A stretch of 52,316 nt of DNA, from NCBI GenBank assembly GCA_014382585.1, contig JACNJL010000056.1:1-52316 (forward strand). Reading direction: 5' to 3'. This stretch comes from Limisphaerales bacterium. Lineage in GTDB: Bacteria > Verrucomicrobiota > Verrucomicrobiia > Limisphaerales > UBA1100. Made by a program: the position numbers and the translations under genes. Under the pieces are notes generated by a model. The model searched no databases, was not told the DNA's origin, and saw only the letters and a list, made by a program, of their open reading frames with translations. Positions 28,888 through 38,261 of the stretch are shown in pieces (positions within the stretch are counted from its first letter, which is position 1; each line of letters starts with the position of its first letter).

Positions 28888-29057
28888 CGGGTTGTCCTTT
28901 AAAGTTGTGGAAACACTTATCTCTAGCGTTTCGGCGACGTTGCAAATCCAAATCGCGCCGCCACGTTAATCCAAGCGGACTTTCACGGCGAACAAAAACT
29001 ATTTTCTTGAGGTTACCGGCCTCGCAGCTTGTCCAAGCGTGCGGGCTGGTCAGCGGT

Positions 29058-29106: not shown

Positions 29107-29808
29107 ATGAAGACTCCCGTGAAGACGATCCTCGTGGTCGATGATGAGCCGGATGCGGTGGAGCTGGTGGAGTTCAATCTGCGCGCCGCCGGGTATTCAG
29201 TGATTGCCGCGGAGGACGGCGCGAAGGCCATTGCCAAGGCGCGCCAGGCATTGCCGGACCTGATTCTGCTCGACGTGATGCTGCCAGAGATTGACGGCAT
29301 GGCCGGCTGCAAAATCCTGAAGAACGATCCGGCTACCGCGAACATCCCCATCATTATGCTCACCGCCAAGGCGGCGGAAATCGACCGTGTGTTGGGTTTG
29401 GAGCTGGGCGCGGATGATTACGTCACCAAACCGTTCAGCCCGCGCGAATTGATGTTGCGCATCAAAAATTTACTCAACCGCCAGACGCCCCCAGCGTCTG
29501 AGGTGCCGGTGAACATTGTGGCGGGGCCGATCACAGTGGATACCGCGCGGCACGCGGTGTTGGTGAATGGCGCGGCGGTGGATTTGACCGCCACCGAGTT
29601 TAAGCTGCTGTCCACGTTGGCGAGCCGCCGCGGGCGGGTGCAGGATCGCGAACAGTTGCTGCGTGACGTGTGGGGGTACGATACCTACATCGACACGCGC
29701 ACGGTGGACACCCACATGCGTCGCCTACGCGAAAAGCTGGGGGCGGCAGCCGGCTGCCTTGAGACGGTGCGCGGCGTGGGCTATCGCTTCTGTGAACGTG
29801 ACGGATAA
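29107..29808 (+). CDS. phoB: phosphate-regulon response regulator PhoB
   Basis: The 233-residue OmpR/PhoB-family regulator has a receiver domain with the acidic pair in VVDDEPDAVELVEF, the phospho-acceptor Asp in LILLDVMLPEIDG, Thr in IIMLTAKA and Lys in DDYVTKPFSPREL. A winged-helix DNA-binding domain follows (VDLTATEFKLLSTLASRRGR, VWGYDTYIDTRTVDTHMRRL, VRGVGYRF). When phosphorylated by PhoR under phosphate starvation, it should activate the pst genes that follow. There is no Shine-Dalgarno site before the ATG. It is the first gene of an eight-gene run and its stop is one base from the phoR start. Naming as PhoB rests on the locus as well as on sequence. Confidence 0.92.
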   Translation: MKTPVKTILVVDDEPDAVELVEFNLRAAGYSVIAAEDGAKAIAKARQALPDLILLDVMLPEIDGMAGCKILKNDPATANIPIIMLTAKAAEIDRVLGLELGADDYVTKPFSPRELMLRIKNLLNRQTPPASEVPVNIVAGPITVDTARHAVLVNGAAVDLTATEFKLLSTLASRRGRVQDREQLLRDVWGYDTYIDTRTVDTHMRRLREKLGAAAGCLETVRGVGYRFCERDG

Positions 29809-29809
29809 C

Positions 29810-30988
29810 ATGGACGCCCTTTGGATCATCCTGATACTGGCGGCTCTCGGCTGGGCATGGCAATTGCGCGGGCGGTTGGCGGCGGCGGAAGCGGAACTGC
29901 AGCGTTGTTGCGCCGAGCAAGGCGAGCAATCCGAACGGCAGCTACTGCAACAACACGCGCTGTTGGATAGTATGGTGGAGGGCGTGCTGGTGTTGGATGC
30001 GGAAAACCGGATCGAGTTGACCAACGCCTCGCTGCGGCAGTTGTTGGGTTTGGCGGAAGACGTTAACGGACAGGCGTTGGAGGAGGCCGTGCCGGTGGCC
30101 GTGCGAACGGAATTAAAGGAACTGGTTGCGGCCGTACGCGAGGCGGGGGAACTGCGCGAGGGCGAACTGCAACTCAATGGCGGCGATCCCAAGCTGGTGC
30201 ATATCAACGCCCATTGCCTACCGCGCGCCGCAGGACAGCACACGTTGCTTGTGTTTCACAATGTCACGCGGCTTAAGGAGCTGGAAAACACTCGGCGCGA
30301 TTTTGTGGCCAATGTGAGTCATGAACTGCGCACCCCACTCTCGTTGATCAAAGGCTTTACTGAAACGTTGATGGACGGCGCGGTGGATGATCCGAAGAAG
30401 AGCCGGGAATTTTTACAAACCATCGACAAACACGCCGATCGGCTGGGCTATTTGATCGATGATTTACTGACCTTGGCGCAGCTGGATTCCGGCCGATTGG
30501 CGATGAACCGGCAGCCGACCAACCTTCGCACCCTGGCCGAGCGCGTGGAGGATGATTTACGAACCAAGGCGGCGAAACGGTCGATTGAGTTAAAAACGGA
30601 TATTCCGGCTGATCTACATCTGGACGCCGATGGCGATCGGCTACAGCAGGCGGTATTCAACCTGGTCGACAACGCGATCAAGTACGGGCGCACGGGGGGC
30701 ACGGTGACCATCGAAGGGCGTGTCAGCACCCAGGGCATGGCCGAGGTGGCGGTGGCCGATGATGGCGAAGGGATTCCGGCCGAGTCGGTTGAGCAGGTGT
30801 TTGAGCGCTTTTTCCGCGTAGACAAGGCCCGCAGCCGGGAGACCGGGGGAACCGGCCTCGGTTTGGCTATCGTGAAGCACATTGTGCACTCGCATGGCGG
30901 CAAAGTGCGGCTGGAAAGTCAAATGGGTCAAGGGGCTCGGTTCATCCTGAACCTGCCGCTCGCGGCGGAATCGGAGGAGGCGGCATGA
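29810..30988 (+). CDS. phoR: phosphate-regulon sensor histidine kinase PhoR
   Basis: The ATG at 29810 gives a 392-residue kinase. A single membrane helix (residues about 3-18, LWIILILAALGWAWQL) is followed by a short helix, a PAS domain (about 40-145, LDSMVEGVLVLDAENRIELT), then HisKA with the phospho-His in FVANVSHELRTPLSLIKGF. The ATPase boxes are NLVDNAIKYGRTGG, VADDGEGIPAESV, FERFFRVDKARS and GGTGLGLAIVKHIV. There is no periplasmic sensor domain, as in E. coli PhoR, so phosphate status is probably read through PhoU and the Pst transporter. The frame is open further upstream inside phoB, but that part is not used. Confidence 0.92.
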   Translation: MDALWIILILAALGWAWQLRGRLAAAEAELQRCCAEQGEQSERQLLQQHALLDSMVEGVLVLDAENRIELTNASLRQLLGLAEDVNGQALEEAVPVAVRTELKELVAAVREAGELREGELQLNGGDPKLVHINAHCLPRAAGQHTLLVFHNVTRLKELENTRRDFVANVSHELRTPLSLIKGFTETLMDGAVDDPKKSREFLQTIDKHADRLGYLIDDLLTLAQLDSGRLAMNRQPTNLRTLAERVEDDLRTKAAKRSIELKTDIPADLHLDADGDRLQQAVFNLVDNAIKYGRTGGTVTIEGRVSTQGMAEVAVADDGEGIPAESVEQVFERFFRVDKARSRETGGTGLGLAIVKHIVHSHGGKVRLESQMGQGARFILNLPLAAESEEAA

Positions 30989-31116: not shown

Positions 31117-32187
31117 ATGAATGATGCCACTCAACTTGAAGAAAGTCTGCAACGCGATATTGATCTGATTCGCAGCAAGGTCGAACGCATGGCGGAGCTG
31201 GCCGAGGCGGGGTTGCGCGACGGGCGCAAAGCGCTCTTTGAAGCAAACGGCCGAATGGCGTACTCAGTGATTTTGCGCGACAAGGAGGTGGATGAGCTGG
31301 AGAAGGAAATTGACCGGCTTTGTCTGGAGTTTCTCATTCGTCAACAACCAGCTGCGGGCCATCTTCGGTTTGTGTATGCCGTCATCAAGATCAACCAAGA
31401 GCTGGAGCGCATTGGGGATTACGCCGAGAGTATTGCGCGTGAATGCCTGACGATCAATTCGTTGAAGATCGAGTTTGACCACTCCGTGTTCATTGAGCTG
31501 AGCGACACCGCGATCTCCATGATGCAACGGTCGCTGCAGGCATTTCTCGCGCAGGACGCGGACATGGCCTGGATGATCATGAAGGATAACGAGCCGGCCA
31601 AGGATCACCGCGATCTGTTAATGGAGCGGCTGGTGGATTTCCATGAGCGCGGCAAGATCCCGATGGAAGCCTTGGCGCCGCTGGAGACCGTGGCGCGCCG
31701 GTATGAGCGCGTGGCCAATCAGGCGACGAATATCTGCGAGGAAATCCTGTACATGTGCACCGGGAAAAACATGAAGCATCTCGGGCAGGAAAGTTTTCGC
31801 GTGTTGTTCGTGGACGACACCAATAGCAGCCACAGCCAAATGGCCGAGGCCATCGGCAACGATGGTCAGTACGCGAATTTTGTATTCAGCAGCGCAGGCA
31901 TTGAGCCGGGATCCCTGGATGGGGGGACGGTGGATTTCCTCAAGGCCAAGGGCTTGGATATTTCCAGCAACATCACCAAGTCCATCGAGCACATTCCAAA
32001 CCTCGAACACTATCAAGTCGTCGTGGCCCTCAGTAAAAAGGGGGCGCAGGCATTTCCGCAACCGCCGACTCGCACCGTTGGCATCCATTGGAACATCAAG
32101 GACGGCGAACTTGAGCAGACACACGAATATTTATCCGAACAAATCCGTGACTTGGCACAGGCCATTCTCGGTGAACAATCCAAATAA
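31117..32187 (+). CDS. phoU: PhoU fused to a cysteine-less ArsC/LMW-phosphatase domain
   Basis: The 356-residue protein has two parts. Residues about 1-217 are a complete PhoU, two three-helix bundles with the first metal-site motif ELERIGDYAESIA and the second as YERVANQATNICEE, where the usual Asp is Asn. PhoU relays Pst activity to PhoR and restrains phosphate uptake. Residues about 227-356 match low-molecular-weight phosphatase/thioredoxin-type arsenate reductase. However, the P-loop C-x5-R reads DDTNSSHS (Cys to Asp233, Arg to His239), and the domain contains no cysteine at all, so it cannot catalyse. The fold signatures FSSAGIEP, GLDISSNITKSI and VGIHWNIKDGE remain. A site AAAGGAA precedes the ATG. 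A 128-base gap after phoR could hold an internal promoter. Confidence 0.88.
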   Translation: MNDATQLEESLQRDIDLIRSKVERMAELAEAGLRDGRKALFEANGRMAYSVILRDKEVDELEKEIDRLCLEFLIRQQPAAGHLRFVYAVIKINQELERIGDYAESIARECLTINSLKIEFDHSVFIELSDTAISMMQRSLQAFLAQDADMAWMIMKDNEPAKDHRDLLMERLVDFHERGKIPMEALAPLETVARRYERVANQATNICEEILYMCTGKNMKHLGQESFRVLFVDDTNSSHSQMAEAIGNDGQYANFVFSSAGIEPGSLDGGTVDFLKAKGLDISSNITKSIEHIPNLEHYQVVVALSKKGAQAFPQPPTRTVGIHWNIKDGELEQTHEYLSEQIRDLAQAILGEQSK

Positions 32188-32199
32188 AATACAATACAC

Positions 32200-33096
32200 A
32201 TGAAAAAGAACATCACTAAAAGTCTGATTGTAGCACTGGCAGTCCCGTTTCTGAGCCAACTCGGCTGTGGGAAACGCGATGGCGGCGGTGAAGGCGGTGA
32301 ATCGACGAACATCCAAAACAAGGGCTCGGATACAATGCTTCAGCTGGCGCAAGCATGGAGCGAGATGTATTCGGCCAAAAATCCGGATGTACGAGTGGCC
32401 GTCTCCGGCGGCGGATCGGGCACGGGTATTGCCGGCCTGATTAACGGCGTGGTGGATGTGGCGAATTGCAGCCGCTCAATTAAGCCCACCGAGGAAAAGG
32501 AAATCGAGGCAAAGCACGGCGTGAAGCCCAAGGAGTATATCATGGGACTCGATTGCTTGGCGGTGTTTGTCCATAAGGACAATCCGATGGAGGAAATCAC
32601 CATCGAACAACTCGGCCAAATTTTTGGTGAAGATGGCACCATCACGAAATGGAGCCAGTTAGGCATTGAAGTGCCCGGGGATAAAGACGAGATCGTGCGC
32701 GTGAGCCGAACCTCAAACTCCGGCACCTATGTGTACTTTAAAGAGACGGTGATCCCTGAGGGGAAATCCTTCAAGTCCGGCGCGCTGGGGATGCATGGCT
32801 CCAAGGAGGTAGTTGAGCTGTGTGGCAAAACAGAGGCCGCCATTGGTTTCAGCGGCATGGGATACGCCACCGATGAGGTGAAGATGCTGCTGGTGTCCCA
32901 AAAAGAGGGCGCCGAAGCCTTTGCTCCTAACAATGAAAATGCGTTAAGCGGTAATTACCCCATTGCACGGCCGTTGTTCATGTACACGCTGGGCGAACCC
33001 AAGCCGCACGTGAAGGCGTACCTGGATTGGTGCATGGGGCCCGAAGGGCAGAAGATTGTGGCAGCCACCGGCTACGTGCCAAACAAGCAAAAGTAG
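32200..33096 (+). CDS. pstS: phosphate ABC transporter substrate-binding protein PstS
   Basis: The 298-residue periplasmic protein captures phosphate for the Pst transporter. It has a hydrophobic leader ending LSQLGCG, a near-lipobox that would anchor it as a lipoprotein. The family pattern is NKGSDTMLQLAQAWSEMY, GGGSGTGIAGLINGVVDVAN, EYIMGLDCLAVFVHKDNP, and the binding motif VSRTSNSGTYVYFKE. It starts 12 bases after phoU with no recognisable ribosome site, which may keep its yield tied to upstream translation. Length and order of motifs are normal for the Pst-type binding protein. Confidence 0.95.
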   Translation: MKKNITKSLIVALAVPFLSQLGCGKRDGGGEGGESTNIQNKGSDTMLQLAQAWSEMYSAKNPDVRVAVSGGGSGTGIAGLINGVVDVANCSRSIKPTEEKEIEAKHGVKPKEYIMGLDCLAVFVHKDNPMEEITIEQLGQIFGEDGTITKWSQLGIEVPGDKDEIVRVSRTSNSGTYVYFKETVIPEGKSFKSGALGMHGSKEVVELCGKTEAAIGFSGMGYATDEVKMLLVSQKEGAEAFAPNNENALSGNYPIARPLFMYTLGEPKPHVKAYLDWCMGPEGQKIVAATGYVPNKQK

Positions 33097-33118
33097 TGTT
33101 AATCCCCCGCCGCGTCTG

Positions 33119-34033
33119 ATGCAGCTGCAGCGTTCCAAGTGGAAAGCCTTCTCCGAAGGCCTGATCGAATGGACGATCCGCGTAAGCGGGATCAGCGCGG
33201 TGGTGTTTGTGTTTGCCATCTTCTTCTTTGTCTTCTGGGAAGGGAAAGGGCTGCTGTTCAGCGATGGCTTCAGTGTGAGTAAACTGTTGACCTCTGAAAA
33301 GTGGGACCCGACTCACACCCCGCCCAGCTACGGGGCCGCACGGATTATTCTGGGCACGTTTAGCGTGGCGATTGTGGCCATGATCATCACGGTGCCGTTC
33401 AGCTTGGGCGGCGCCGTGTTCATTTCAGAATTCTGCGGGCCGCGGCTGAAGGAAATTCTGAAAGTTGTCATCGAACTGCTGGCGGCCATTCCGTCTGTGG
33501 TGTGGGGATTTATCGGACTCAAGATTACCTCCGTGTACATGAAAGATTTGGGGGCGGATGCGGGGGTGTCGCTGTTAAACGGCGCCATCATTCTGGCCTT
33601 GATGAGCATGCCGATTATCGTCTCCATCAGTGAGGACGCGCTCAATGCTGTCCCCGATTCCTACCGCGAAGCGGCCATCGGCTTGGGGGTGACCAAATGG
33701 CAAATGGTTTTCCGCGTGTTGCTGCCCGGCGCCAAAAACGGTCTGCTCGCCGCAGTGTTGCTGGGCATGGGCCGGGTGGTGGGTGAAACCATGGCCGTCC
33801 TCATGGCCACCGGGAACGCGGATAACAATCCCTTCAGCTCAGATGCGCCGTTCCTTGACGTCTTGGTTTCTGTGAAAACCATGACGGCCACCATTGCCAA
33901 GGAAATGGGCGACACCGTCAACGGTGGGGATCACTATCAGGTGTTGTTCCTGCTAGGGGTTCTGCTTTTTTCCATCACGTTTATTGTCAATCTCACCGCA
34001 CATTTGGTGATTCACGGGGTTAAACGGAAATGA
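33119..34033 (+). CDS. pstC: phosphate ABC transporter permease PstC
   Basis: The ATG at 33119 gives 304 residues, with six or so membrane helices (VSGISAVVFVFAIFFFVFW, IILGTFSVAIVAMIITVPF, VVIELLAAIPSVVWGFIGL and others). The ATPase-contact loop SYREAAIGLGVTKWQMVFR is the EAA motif. A long external loop after the first helix (GKGLLFSDGFSVSKLLT) is typical of PstC. It forms the channel with PstA. The gap after pstS is 22 bases and the stop overlaps the pstA start by four bases (ATGA). Confidence 0.95.
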   Translation: MQLQRSKWKAFSEGLIEWTIRVSGISAVVFVFAIFFFVFWEGKGLLFSDGFSVSKLLTSEKWDPTHTPPSYGAARIILGTFSVAIVAMIITVPFSLGGAVFISEFCGPRLKEILKVVIELLAAIPSVVWGFIGLKITSVYMKDLGADAGVSLLNGAIILALMSMPIIVSISEDALNAVPDSYREAAIGLGVTKWQMVFRVLLPGAKNGLLAAVLLGMGRVVGETMAVLMATGNADNNPFSSDAPFLDVLVSVKTMTATIAKEMGDTVNGGDHYQVLFLLGVLLFSITFIVNLTAHLVIHGVKRK

Positions 34034-34992
34034 ACGATTCCCAGCGCTTTACCAAGACGCCCTTCACTGAAAAGAAGGAATCCCGCGAAAAGTGGGTGAA
34101 AGTCTTGCTGTTCATGGTGACGCTCTCGATGGCGTTACCCGTGATTCTGCTGATCAGTTTCTTGATACACAAGGCGCTGCCGGTGTTGTCGTTGAATTTC
34201 ATTACCGATATCCCGCGCGACCTCATGAGTGGGGGCGGTATTTGGCCTGCCATTTTAGGAACGATCTATCTGGTCGTCTTGTCATTGCTGGTGGCGGCGC
34301 CGGTAGGCGTGATGGCAGGCATTTACCTTAATGAATACGCGAAGGACAACTGGCTCACGCGACTGATCAACCTCGCTGTCATCAACCTCGCTGGGGTGCC
34401 GAGCATTGTCCACGCTTTGTTTGGATTAGGGGCCTTTGTCATGTTCGCCGGTTTGGGCGAATCGGTGATCGCGGCCTCGCTGACCCTCGCGGTGATGACG
34501 ATGCCCGTGGTGATTACCAGTACGCGGGAGGCGCTTTCGGCTGTCCCCATGTCCTTCCGTGAGGCCTCGTGGAACTTGGGCGTGAGCCGCTGGCAAACCA
34601 TTCGGGGCGTGGTGCTGCCCAATTCGATCAGCGGCATTTTAACCGGGGTGATCCTGGAGGTATCCCGCGCGGCTGGAGAGACGGCCCCCATCATGATTAC
34701 CGGCGCCGCAGCGAGCATTACTTTTAGGCAGGGCGAAACGGTGTATTACTTATTGGGCGAGAAGTTCATGGCGCTTTCATATCACCTGTACTACATGTCC
34801 ATGGGATGGAAAGTGCCGGATAAATTGCCCAATCCGGAGACCGGCGAAATGGTGCCGATGACCCAAGCAGCGATCGAACACGCGCAAGCCATCCCTTACG
34901 GCACGGCGGTGGTCTTACTCGGGGTCGTGCTGTTATTTAACTCTGTGTCCATCGCCTTCCGATATTATCTGCGCACACATCGAAAATGGTAG
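34030..34992 (+). CDS. pstA: phosphate ABC transporter permease PstA
   Basis: The 320-residue inner-membrane protein carries about six hydrophobic helices (LLFMVTLSMALPVILLISFL, ILGTIYLVVLSLLVAAPVG, GTAVVLLGVVLLFNSVSIAF). The EAA loop SFREASWNLGVSRWQTIRG docks to the ATPase. SGGGIWPAILGT and AGIYLNEYAKDNWLTR match PstA. It pairs with PstC to form the translocation path. It overlaps pstC by four bases and pstB1 by seven, so translation of the transporter is coupled. Confidence 0.95.
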   Translation: MNDSQRFTKTPFTEKKESREKWVKVLLFMVTLSMALPVILLISFLIHKALPVLSLNFITDIPRDLMSGGGIWPAILGTIYLVVLSLLVAAPVGVMAGIYLNEYAKDNWLTRLINLAVINLAGVPSIVHALFGLGAFVMFAGLGESVIAASLTLAVMTMPVVITSTREALSAVPMSFREASWNLGVSRWQTIRGVVLPNSISGILTGVILEVSRAAGETAPIMITGAAASITFRQGETVYYLLGEKFMALSYHLYYMSMGWKVPDKLPNPETGEMVPMTQAAIEHAQAIPYGTAVVLLGVVLLFNSVSIAFRYYLRTHRKW

Positions 34993-35750
34993 CCGACACG
35001 CCCAAGTTGAATGTGGATAGCCTGCGTGCCTGGTACGGAGACGACGAGGTGATTCATGGAATTTCATTTGATGTGCGGAAGAATGAAATCTTCGGCATCA
35101 TCGGGCCTGCGCAATCCGGCAAGACCACGTTGCTGAAGATCATTAACCGCACCCTGGAATTCACCACCGGCTCACGCATGGGCGGGTTGGTGGAGATGGA
35201 TGGACAGGATGTGTATCACATCAAAGACGTATACGGATATCGCCGCCGCGTGGGCATGGTGGCGCCGTTGCCGGTGGGGCTGCCGCTTTCCATTTACGAT
35301 AACGTCGCCTTTGCGCCGCGCAGTTTTGGCATGAAGGACAAGCAGGAGCTTGATGGCTTGGTGCAGAAATGTCTCGAGCAGGCGGCCTTGTGGGATGAGG
35401 TGAAGGACCGACTCGACTCGCTGGGCACCAAGCTCTCCGGAGGCCAACAGCAGCGGCTGACCATCGCGCGCGCGTTAAGTCATCAGCCGGAGGTCTTATG
35501 TCTCGATGAATTTTCAATCGCCATCGACCCGGTCACCACAATGAAGATTGAGGACGTGCTCAAGGAGCTGCGCAATGAAATGACGATCATTCTCGTGACC
35601 AACCTCGTGCAACAGGCGCGGCGGTTGGCGGATCGGACGATGTTTATGCTCAACGGCGAAGTGGTGGAGATCGGCGATACGGAGCCGATGTTCTCCGGCA
35701 ATGCCAAGCAGCCCAAGACCAATGCCTTTGTGAGTGGAGCTTTTGGATGA
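34986..35750 (+). CDS. pstB: phosphate ABC transporter ATPase, first copy, with altered Q-loop and H-loop
   Basis: The 254-residue protein is recognisable as PstB throughout (VDSLRAWYGDDEVIHGISF, YDNVAFAPR, LFxxNAKQPKT-like end). Walker A is GPAQSGKTT (40-48), the signature is intact LSGGQQQRL (150-157), and Walker B keeps Asp174-Glu175 but reads LDEFSIAID instead of MDEPCSALD. The Q-loop, normally VFQ, is VAP (Pro94), and the switch His of VTH is Asn206 (VTNLVQQ). It should bind ATP but is unlikely to hydrolyse it well with its own Walker/H-loop set. The neighbouring second copy has the opposite defect. It overlaps pstA by seven bases. Confidence 0.9.
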   Translation: MVADTPKLNVDSLRAWYGDDEVIHGISFDVRKNEIFGIIGPAQSGKTTLLKIINRTLEFTTGSRMGGLVEMDGQDVYHIKDVYGYRRRVGMVAPLPVGLPLSIYDNVAFAPRSFGMKDKQELDGLVQKCLEQAALWDEVKDRLDSLGTKLSGGQQQRLTIARALSHQPEVLCLDEFSIAIDPVTTMKIEDVLKELRNEMTIILVTNLVQQARRLADRTMFMLNGEVVEIGDTEPMFSGNAKQPKTNAFVSGAFG

Positions 35751-35754
35751 TCCG

Positions 35755-36534
35755 ATGATGAGTGCTCAACGCGAACATGCCATTGTGACGGAGAAACTGA
35801 GCCTCTGGTACGGCGATTTTCAAGCGCTCGATGGGGTCTCCACACGCATCCGAGATGGTGTTATCACCGGCCTGATCGGCCCGAGCGGTTGTGGTAAAAC
35901 CACGTTCCTCCGCTGCCTCAATCGCGTGAACGAACGCTACGGCAACGTTCGCACCGAAGGGATGATCGATATCCTCGGCAAAAATATTTACGACGACGAC
36001 GTATCGCTCATCGAGCTGCGCAAGTCCGTGGGCATGGTCTTTCAGCGACCCAATCCGCTGCCGATTTCCGTTTATGAAAACGTCGTGTTCGGCCTGCGCA
36101 TCCACAAGCGGCGCAGTGAACTGAGCAAATCTGTGCTGGACCAAGCTGTCGAAGAAGCCTTACGCGAGGTGCGGCTGTGGGCGGATCTCAAGGATCGCCT
36201 GCACGATAAGGCCACGGACCTGCAGCTCGAGCAGCAACAAAAGCTGTGCATCGCGCGGCTGCTGCCACTCAAGCCCGATGTGATTTTGATGGACGAGCCG
36301 TGCTCCGCCCTGGACGTCGAGGCCACCACTGCGGTGGAGGAACTGATGCGGACGCTAGCCGGGCGATACACCATCGTGATCGTCACCCACAACATGGCTC
36401 AGGCGCGCCGCATTAGTGATGATTGTATTTTCATGCTACTGGGCGACATCGTGGAACAGGCCCGAACCGAGGATTTGTTCCTCAATCCCCAGCACGAAAA
36501 GACGGCCGACTACATTGAAGGCCGTTATGGATGA
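35755..36534 (+). CDS. pstB: phosphate ABC transporter ATPase, second copy, with degenerate signature
   Basis: The 259-residue protein starts at the ATG at 35755 (an ATG follows at 35758; a GTG at 35734 overlapping the first copy is less likely). Walker A GPSGCGKTT (42-50), the Q-loop VFQ (Gln97), Walker B ILMDEPCSALD (Asp180-Glu181) and the switch VTHN (His212) are all canonical PstB. The signature that should read LSGGQQQ is LQLEQQQK (156-163), so this copy cannot offer a normal LSGGQ to the opposite site. Together with the first copy it can complete only one standard ATP site. It ends the Pho/Pst run; no terminator is evident in the 18-base gap to the convergent gene. Confidence 0.92.
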   Translation: MMSAQREHAIVTEKLSLWYGDFQALDGVSTRIRDGVITGLIGPSGCGKTTFLRCLNRVNERYGNVRTEGMIDILGKNIYDDDVSLIELRKSVGMVFQRPNPLPISVYENVVFGLRIHKRRSELSKSVLDQAVEEALREVRLWADLKDRLHDKATDLQLEQQQKLCIARLLPLKPDVILMDEPCSALDVEATTAVEELMRTLAGRYTIVIVTHNMAQARRISDDCIFMLLGDIVEQARTEDLFLNPQHEKTADYIEGRYG

Positions 36535-36552: not shown

Positions 36553-37281
36553 CTAACGCACCGGACCCCACACCTGTTCCATCACTTTGAACATGCGCGG
36601 GTCGTGTTCCTTTAATTCTGCGCGTACGAAGGGATAAAAATCATTCACCCCCAGATACGCCTCCGTGCTCTCGGCGAAATACTCCTTGTGATTGTTCAGG
36701 CCGTAATGCTTCACCGGCCGGCGTCCCGTGTAGAGCAGCACCTTCTCATAGATCCCCTCCTTCTTGGCCGCCTCGTACGCGCCGATGATGTCCTTGTTTT
36801 CAAAACTCAACACCTGATCATGATACGCATGCGCCAGCTCGTGCAGGATCACATAGGGATGCTTGGCCCACATACCACGATCAATCAACGCGCGAGCCCG
36901 CGGAATGTGCACGTGCTTGGCTAGGGCCGGGTCATGCCGATTGGCGCGCAACCAACTCACACTCGGATGATACTGCATCGAGCCCAGTCGCTCATTGTGC
37001 AGCTCCAACCGGATCGGTAGCTTCTGCAGCGCTTTCCATTTTTTTTCCGGCAAAATATATTTCACCCGCTGCAAATGATTAGCCAGCGCCACCAGACACT
37101 GGTCAGCCAACGCCTTGTTGTCCTCCGCCAACAACCGCGGCTCCACCGCAATCGTCCACCCCTCGACGTTCTTTTTGATCGGCTTGTAATACGGCTCTTT
37201 GGGCGGATCAGCCTGTACGGTCAGTGCGAGGCTTAAGGTAAATAGGGCGACCCCGATGCGATGAATAATAATTGATGGCAT
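36553..37281 (-). CDS. exported zinc-metallopeptidase-like protein (HELAH)
   Basis: The 242-residue protein has a signal peptide (RIGVALFTLSLALTVQA) and the HExxH motif HELAHAYHDQ. About 50 residues later NHKEYFAESTEAYLG offers the Glu and the EYFAE-x-x-E-A-Y/F pattern seen in the anthrax-lethal-factor-like metallopeptidase group. There is no long pro-region. The substrate is unknown. A gap of about 130 bases upstream, between this gene and the VanX-like gene, shows no clear motif. It converges with the pstB copy. Confidence 0.8.
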   Translation of the reverse strand: MPSIIIHRIGVALFTLSLALTVQADPPKEPYYKPIKKNVEGWTIAVEPRLLAEDNKALADQCLVALANHLQRVKYILPEKKWKALQKLPIRLELHNERLGSMQYHPSVSWLRANRHDPALAKHVHIPRARALIDRGMWAKHPYVILHELAHAYHDQVLSFENKDIIGAYEAAKKEGIYEKVLLYTGRRPVKHYGLNNHKEYFAESTEAYLGVNDFYPFVRAELKEHDPRMFKVMEQVWGPVR

Positions 37282-37412: not shown

Positions 37413-38261
37413 TTAGGTTGAAATTATGGCCCGTTCAAGGGCGGCGGTGATTTCAGTTTCCATTTGGGACAATGGATTGAGCGGGCCGAGCGCATCGGCG
37501 TAGGGCGTGACTTCGTTGGTGTGCGGATCCCAATCAACCGGTCCGTAACGAGCCGGCGCGGGCCGGTCCCTAAGCATATGCGCCATGGCATCACCTTGGT
37601 TGAAGTGCCAGTACTCGAAAGGGAAATGGACGAAATGGTGCGCCTCCATCATAGCGGTGATGGTGAGGCGGTTTTCGAGTTGCTCGGGGGTGATAAATGG
37701 CGAGCGCATGGGGGTGCGTTCGCTCATCTCAATGTACGGCCCGCCACGCCAAACCTCGGTGCGATCAGCGCGATTCAACACTGAAATATCGATGGCCGAA
37801 GCAGACATATGCGTGCCGACTTTGGGGATGTTAGCCACCAGCACATGGGCACGACGAAAAACCATCTCGGCCGGGGGCGGGCCGCCGTATTCCCAAGCGC
37901 ACTGTTGCACGATGGTATCGAACACCTCTGGCTTGCGGCCGAGGCGCGTTTGCATGTCGCGCGTGCGGAAGCCGTCCTCGATTTTCAAAATCCAGCCACG
38001 CTCGTTCATGTCGCGGCCAATGGCAATGACGTCATCGACGAGCCCTTCGCGGATGTAAAAAATGCGGTCGAGGTCATCGACGATTTTGCTGTCTGAAAAG
38101 AGCATCTCCACCCCGCCCGCCACCGCCGCGGCGCGAATATCCGCCAAGCCCTCGGCACATTCCACCACGGCAAAGGGCAGGATCGCGTCCACCAACTCAT
38201 GACCCGCATTCATCTGCTCCGTCCAATAAGCGCGGCGCTTATCATCGTCAAAATCACTCAT
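37413..38261 (-). CDS. D-Ala-D-Ala dipeptidase-like protein (M15D, VanX/DdpX family)
   Basis: The 282-residue protein has the M15 zinc site: GTHMSASAIDIS (His and Asp ligands, as SxHxxGxAxD) and, later, EYWHFNQG (catalytic Glu and the last His ligand, as EWWH in VanX). RTRDMQTRLGR matches the segment before the site. VanX/DdpX enzymes split D-Ala-D-Ala; whether this one recycles peptidoglycan peptides or has another dipeptide substrate is open. No signal peptide is present, so it is cytoplasmic. It starts three bases after the stop of a 47-residue gene and is the last gene of a three-gene unit. Confidence 0.8.
   Translation of the reverse strand: MSDFDDDKRRAYWTEQMNAGHELVDAILPFAVVECAEGLADIRAAAVAGGVEMLFSDSKIVDDLDRIFYIREGLVDDVIAIGRDMNERGWILKIEDGFRTRDMQTRLGRKPEVFDTIVQQCAWEYGGPPPAEMVFRRAHVLVANIPKVGTHMSASAIDISVLNRADRTEVWRGGPYIEMSERTPMRSPFITPEQLENRLTITAMMEAHHFVHFPFEYWHFNQGDAMAHMLRDRPAPARYGPVDWDPHTNEVTPYADALGPLNPLSQMETEITAALERAIIST

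Follow-up and report, generated by a model that had tools for sequence, protein, structure and literature searches.

A PhoU protein fused to a degenerate ArsC/LMW-phosphatase-fold domain heads a pst operon with two unequal PstB ATPases

The window, by which we mean the whole 52,316-nucleotide stretch of Limisphaerales DNA analysed here, contains a pst operon in the order phoU-LMWP, pstS, pstC, pstA, pstB1, and pstB2. The first gene, phoU-LMWP (31117..32187, + strand), is an open frame of 356 residues with an ATG start and, by profile searches and structure prediction, encodes a PhoU with a dead C-terminal domain of the ArsC/LMW-phosphatase fold. Upstream on the same strand, profile matches identify a phoB-type response regulator (29107..29808) and a phoR-type sensor kinase with a PAS domain (29663..30988), for which the mechanical ORF start is too early. 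Downstream, and likewise assigned by profile matches, lie pstS (32200..33096, +), which is the conserved next gene and begins 12 bases past the fusion stop codon; a pstC-type permease (33056..34033, +), whose true start may lie downstream of the mechanical ORF start; and a pstA-type permease (34030..34992, +). No clear Pho box was found before the fusion gene in the window, and a single weak match precedes phoB (position 29057); window-wide, Pho box counts are under chance expectation. Beyond the operon, an ORF on the minus strand (36553-37281) adjoins pstB2 and has a weak Pfam match to PF07737 (23.3 bits against a cut-off of 27.4), and another (37413-38261, −) resembles M15-type D-Ala-D-Ala dipeptidases (PF01427, E 7e-12). 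In the source assembly (95% complete), no PhoU-like match was found besides the PhoU of the fusion.

The N-terminal part of the protein (residues 11-219; 31147..31773, +) comprises two PhoU repeats, as indicated by (i) the TIGR02135 phoU_full profile, which matches residues 11-219 at 140.7 bits (cut-off 130.25), (ii) Pfam PhoU (PF01895), which matches two stretches (E 6.6e-31), and (iii) the predicted fold. After an interdomain linker (residues about 220-226; 31774..31794, +) follows the ArsC/LMW-phosphatase-fold domain (residues 227-356; 31795..32184, +). Here, Pfam LMWPc (PF01451) matches residues 229-311 at 24.4 bits, barely over its cut-off of 23.2, and the NCBIfam arsC profile of the pI258 family matches residues 230-335 (E 6e-12) at 45.9, far under its equivalog cut-off of 174.3. 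A PDB sequence search found ArsC structures, with a best E of 4.6e-9 when the C-terminal domain alone was used. The first-pass annotation, which had read the protein as PhoU fused to an ArsC/LMW-phosphatase domain, had proposed a structure prediction as a check, and an AlphaFold model built with ten family sequences bears its reading out. In this model (mean pLDDT 85.5), residues 2-217 resemble known structures of PhoU (Z 29.7 to 1t72), and residues 225-349 adopt the ArsC fold (Z 18.5 to pI258 ArsC, with an rmsd of 1.8 Å over 123 residues); LMW-PTP structures rank behind, at a Z of about 16. The fold signatures that had been picked out by eye, FSSAGIEP and VGIHW, both lie in this domain. Because pTM is modest (0.61) and the linker is of low confidence (pLDDT <50 at residues 219-225), the model does not define the placement of the two domains relative to each other.

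The former catalytic site of the window protein is heavily altered. By alignment, the P-loop signature C-x5-R has become D233-x5-H239 (31813..31833, +), such that the loop reads V-D233-D-T-N-S-S-H239-S, as against V-C-x-x-N-S-x-R-S in the enzymes; this agrees with the D-x5-H noted at first pass, as does the absence of Cys from all three reductase positions. Indeed, the C-terminal domain contains zero Cys, and residues 305 and 313, which align with the two redox cysteines of ArsC, are Leu and Phe. The Asp-Pro general-acid loop (DP loop) is also gone, with the segment reading HWNIKDGE. A sequencing or frameshift artefact is ruled out, since the loss of the nucleophile is shared by an independent assembly (L034, 91% identical) and by 67 more fusions; L034 has an early frameshift and another member (G013) is split over contigs, with the Asp present in both.

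We then placed the window protein in its family by the route that the first-pass annotation had suggested, namely a search for further fusions and an alignment of their P-loops. Related genomes and public contigs yielded 69 distinct fusions, in which the nucleophile position is occupied by Asp (66), Glu (two), or Gly (one, L011) and never by Cys, although an unrelated PhoU-ArsC fusion with an intact Cys elsewhere could escape searches seeded with the window protein. Neither of the two further redox positions (305 and 313) holds a Cys in any of the 69. Cys and Arg are both kept in all 18 free-standing relatives from the same genomes (seven ArsC and 11 LMW-PTP), and the Cys loss is thus specific to the fusion. 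Three more distant fusions outside the 69 (L181-L183) comprise two with Asp and Arg and one, L183, in which the nucleophile appears to be replaced by Ser. An ORF of roughly 720 residues whose N-terminal LMW-phosphatase domain retains Cys and Arg is also present in most genomes of the order (examples are G000:C44:54945-55370, which is L002, and L109-L137). That the fused domain might still work as an ArsC or LMW phosphatase, using an unusual set of catalytic residues, is hardly credible to us: its predicted fold is intact, but C-x5-R occurs in 0/69 fusions, the window domain is without Cys, and Leu and Phe stand at the redox positions, so that activity of this kind is ruled out on residues. The pseudoenzyme reading of the first pass is thereby supported, both by the family-wide absence of the Cys and by the ArsC-like predicted fold.

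In one detail the first-pass reading needs correction, in that Cys is lost from 69/69 but the P-loop Arg is lost from only 41 and kept in the other 28. When placed on the PhoU-part tree, the state of this Arg implies about 10 parsimony changes, at least 4 of them forced by the starred branches; the residue is absent throughout the 13-member clade of the window protein. The DP loop is present in 51/69 fusions, that is, in 28/28 with the Arg and in 23/41 without it, which indicates a stepwise erosion of the pocket. These residues bear on whether the domain is a small-molecule sensor, whose old or remodelled oxyanion pocket would bind phosphate, arsenate, or another metabolite and inform PhoU about the cytosol. 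Such a role would suit the well-conserved P-loop scaffold (N236, S240, E244, and S259), the retention of the DP loop in every Arg-keeping fusion, and the response of a mycobacterial PhoU to Pi in vitro (PMC12301784). However, an acid at the nucleophile position should repel oxyanions, the Arg has been lost repeatedly, and the window protein lacks the DP loop. With an acid for the nucleophile and no Arg, the window protein would have a poor oxyanion site, and the phosphate or arsenate sensing proposed at first pass is therefore disfavoured for it, although the pocket may possibly serve this purpose in the Arg-retaining relatives; as a general account of the domain, we regard sensing as unlikely.

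The acid itself deserves separate consideration. D233 is among the best-conserved positions of the family, which include the scaffold residues R228, F231, A243, E244, F257, S259-A-G, and W325. An acidic residue in 68/69 fusions, conserved like the structural core, is more than an inert pocket free to drift should show, and the site could conceivably be re-purposed rather than dead, with the Asp as a chemically active phospho-acceptor (forming an aspartyl phosphate) or as a metal ligand. We consider this very unlikely, as Gly replaces the acid in L011 and apparently Ser in the more distant L183; moreover, no protein of the LMW-phosphatase fold is known to use an Asp here in either capacity.

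All of the fused domains fall on one branch of the domain tree (SH-aLRT 100), apart from free-standing ArsC and LMW-PTP, and the fused domain thus has a single origin. The Cys was most simply lost once, before the family spread; its loss is ancestral and fixed, and that of the Arg is later and repeated. Purifying selection acts on the domain (dN/dS about 0.1), with values of 0.08-0.14 in close pairs, to which the analysis was confined because distant pairs are saturated. In most of these pairs, the domain evolves faster than the PhoU part (for the window protein and L034, 0.097 and 0.024, respectively). A decaying domain is ruled out by these values. We likewise find it distinctly unlikely that the domain does nothing more than help the fused PhoU to fold or stay stable, as an inert passenger; its faster evolution and the fact that PhoU functions without it elsewhere, even beside the same PstB1/PstB2 pair, speak for such a passenger, but a dN/dS near 0.1 together with the family-wide retention of specific residues argues for a specific role.

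The fusion occurs in 61/293 sampled genomes of the order to which the window belongs and is rare elsewhere in a 388-genome sample of the phylum (four more genomes, one of them with a partial match containing a stop); it is also present in L040, a contig labelled Deltaproteobacteria, and in three relatives of L040. Sampled genomes of the same genus as the window (G001-G006) are without the fusion, some having a plain PhoU, and the fusion in a genome from another family of the phylum (G351) is 70% identical to that of the window, which suggests that the operon has moved between lineages. On plasmids, no fusion was found; the matches listed contain only plain PhoU, and no record reaches 80% coverage of the query. 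On every contig long enough to show it, pstS lies next to the fusion, followed on longer contigs by pstC, pstA, pstB1, and pstB2, with L040 differing in having pstB1 ahead of pstA. Adjacent phoB and phoR genes are missing from most fusion operons. Many fusion genomes contain a second, ordinary PhoU, which in the cases that we read belongs to an ordinary pst operon with a canonical PstB. Pho box-like direct repeats of the TGTCAC-N5-TGTCAC type precede 7/68 fusion operons (L008, L046, L059, L061, L069, L076, and L085), as compared with about 0.1 expected from shuffles.

The two ATPases of the operon, which the first-pass annotation had not remarked on, are unequal. PstB1 (34986..35750, +) keeps Walker A and LSGGQ but has Ala for the Q-loop Gln and Asn for the H-loop His; PstB2 (35734..36534, +; its mechanically called start may lie too far upstream) keeps Walker A and B, the Q-loop, and the H-loop but has LQLEQ for LSGGQ. 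The same pattern extends across the relatives, where PstB1 has LSGGQ in 40/40, an H-loop Asn in 40/40, and a Q-loop without Gln, and PstB2 has the H-loop His in 41/41, the Q-loop Gln, and LSGGQ in none (usually LQLEQ instead). In ABC proteins, each composite ATP site is formed by Walker A/B and the His of one subunit and by LSGGQ of the other. The complementary motifs therefore predict one consensus site, made of the PstB2 core and the PstB1 signature, and one degenerate site, that is, a Pst importer with one working ATP site.

Across the 293 genomes, 53 have both the fusion and PstB1, eight the fusion only, six PstB1 only, and 226 neither (Fisher p about 1e-42). In all eight fusion-only genomes, the contig ends 0-2.7 kb downstream of the fusion, which leaves no room for pstB1, whereas the six PstB1-only genomes comprise three with a plain divergent PhoU, two without a PhoU nearby, and one cut by a contig end. 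Moreover, an ordinary PhoU stands beside the asymmetric pair in L163, L165, L167, and L184-L186, and the more distant asymmetric operons have a plain PhoU as their last gene. An obligate partnership is thus ruled out: the fusion is so far always accompanied by the asymmetric pair, but the pair does not need the fusion, nor does that transporter require the dead domain. Fusion-less members are scattered in the PstB1 tree (among them L166, which is truncated at a contig end and may have the fusion after all), and the tree does not settle whether the fusion or the pair appeared first.

Taken together, these observations favour, with a probability that we put at roughly 0.5, a dead domain that acts as a docking module linking PhoU to the asymmetric transporter and/or to PhoR. 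Among the roles put forward at first pass, such docking is the best fit to the operon linkage, although that linkage could alternatively stem from inheritance of the operon as a unit and not from contact. In the scheme that we propose, the C-terminal domain would have descended from an enzyme of the ArsC/LMW-phosphatase fold, ceased to be catalytic before the radiation of the family, and then been retained for protein-protein contact, as a non-catalytic module. The role of the PhoU part is most likely the usual one, that of contacting the transporter ATPase and PhoR and holding PhoR in its phosphatase state under plentiful phosphate; in Escherichia coli, PhoU binds both PstB and PhoR (PMC4423584). 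The dead domain, on its flexible linker, would most likely make a second contact in this complex, to PstB1, PstB2, or PhoR, and may help PhoU to sense which conformation is adopted by a Pst ATPase with a single working ATP site; PstB mutants locked in different conformations are known to give opposite Pho signals (PMC5775613). A bolder version of docking, in which the domain is a dedicated clamp on one of the unequal ATPases, with the near-invariant acid making the key contact in a phosphate sensor-transporter of new layout, is one that we offer tentatively, with the odds against it.

It has long been asked how PhoU informs PhoR of the state of the Pst transporter, and the symmetry of the E. 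coli PstB dimer makes it hard to tell which face PhoU reads. With unequal ATPases and an extra domain on PhoU, each contact could be probed separately. The family also provides a clear bacterial pseudoenzyme of the ArsC/LMW-phosphatase fold, fixed across many genera. Our search of the open-access literature found no description of a PhoU-ArsC fusion or of an asymmetric PstB pair; databases may list the domain combination.

With known PhoU proteins (TIGR02135; structures 1t72, 4q25, and 1xwm), the fusion has in common both repeats, the fold (Z about 29), and membership of a pst operon, but it adds a C-terminal ArsC-fold domain, heads the operon instead of ending it, and sits beside asymmetric ATPases. 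The added domain shares its predicted fold, the P-loop scaffold residues, the SAG motif, and the conserved Trp after the last strand with thioredoxin-type ArsC (the pI258/Bacillus subtilis family) and LMW-PTP (PF01451), from which it differs in having an acid for the Cys in nearly all members, in the absence of the other redox Cys, and often in the absence of the Arg. A pst operon with neighbouring genes for two PstB proteins is likewise known from Enterococcus faecalis, where PstB1 and PstB2 are both intact (PMC12096839), unlike the window pair, whose motifs are lost in complementary fashion. The site asymmetry predicted for this pair is the same as that of heterodimeric ABC transporters with one degenerate site, such as MsRv1273c/72c (PMC12038006); those are, however, exporters, whereas the system described here is a phosphate importer tied to PhoU.
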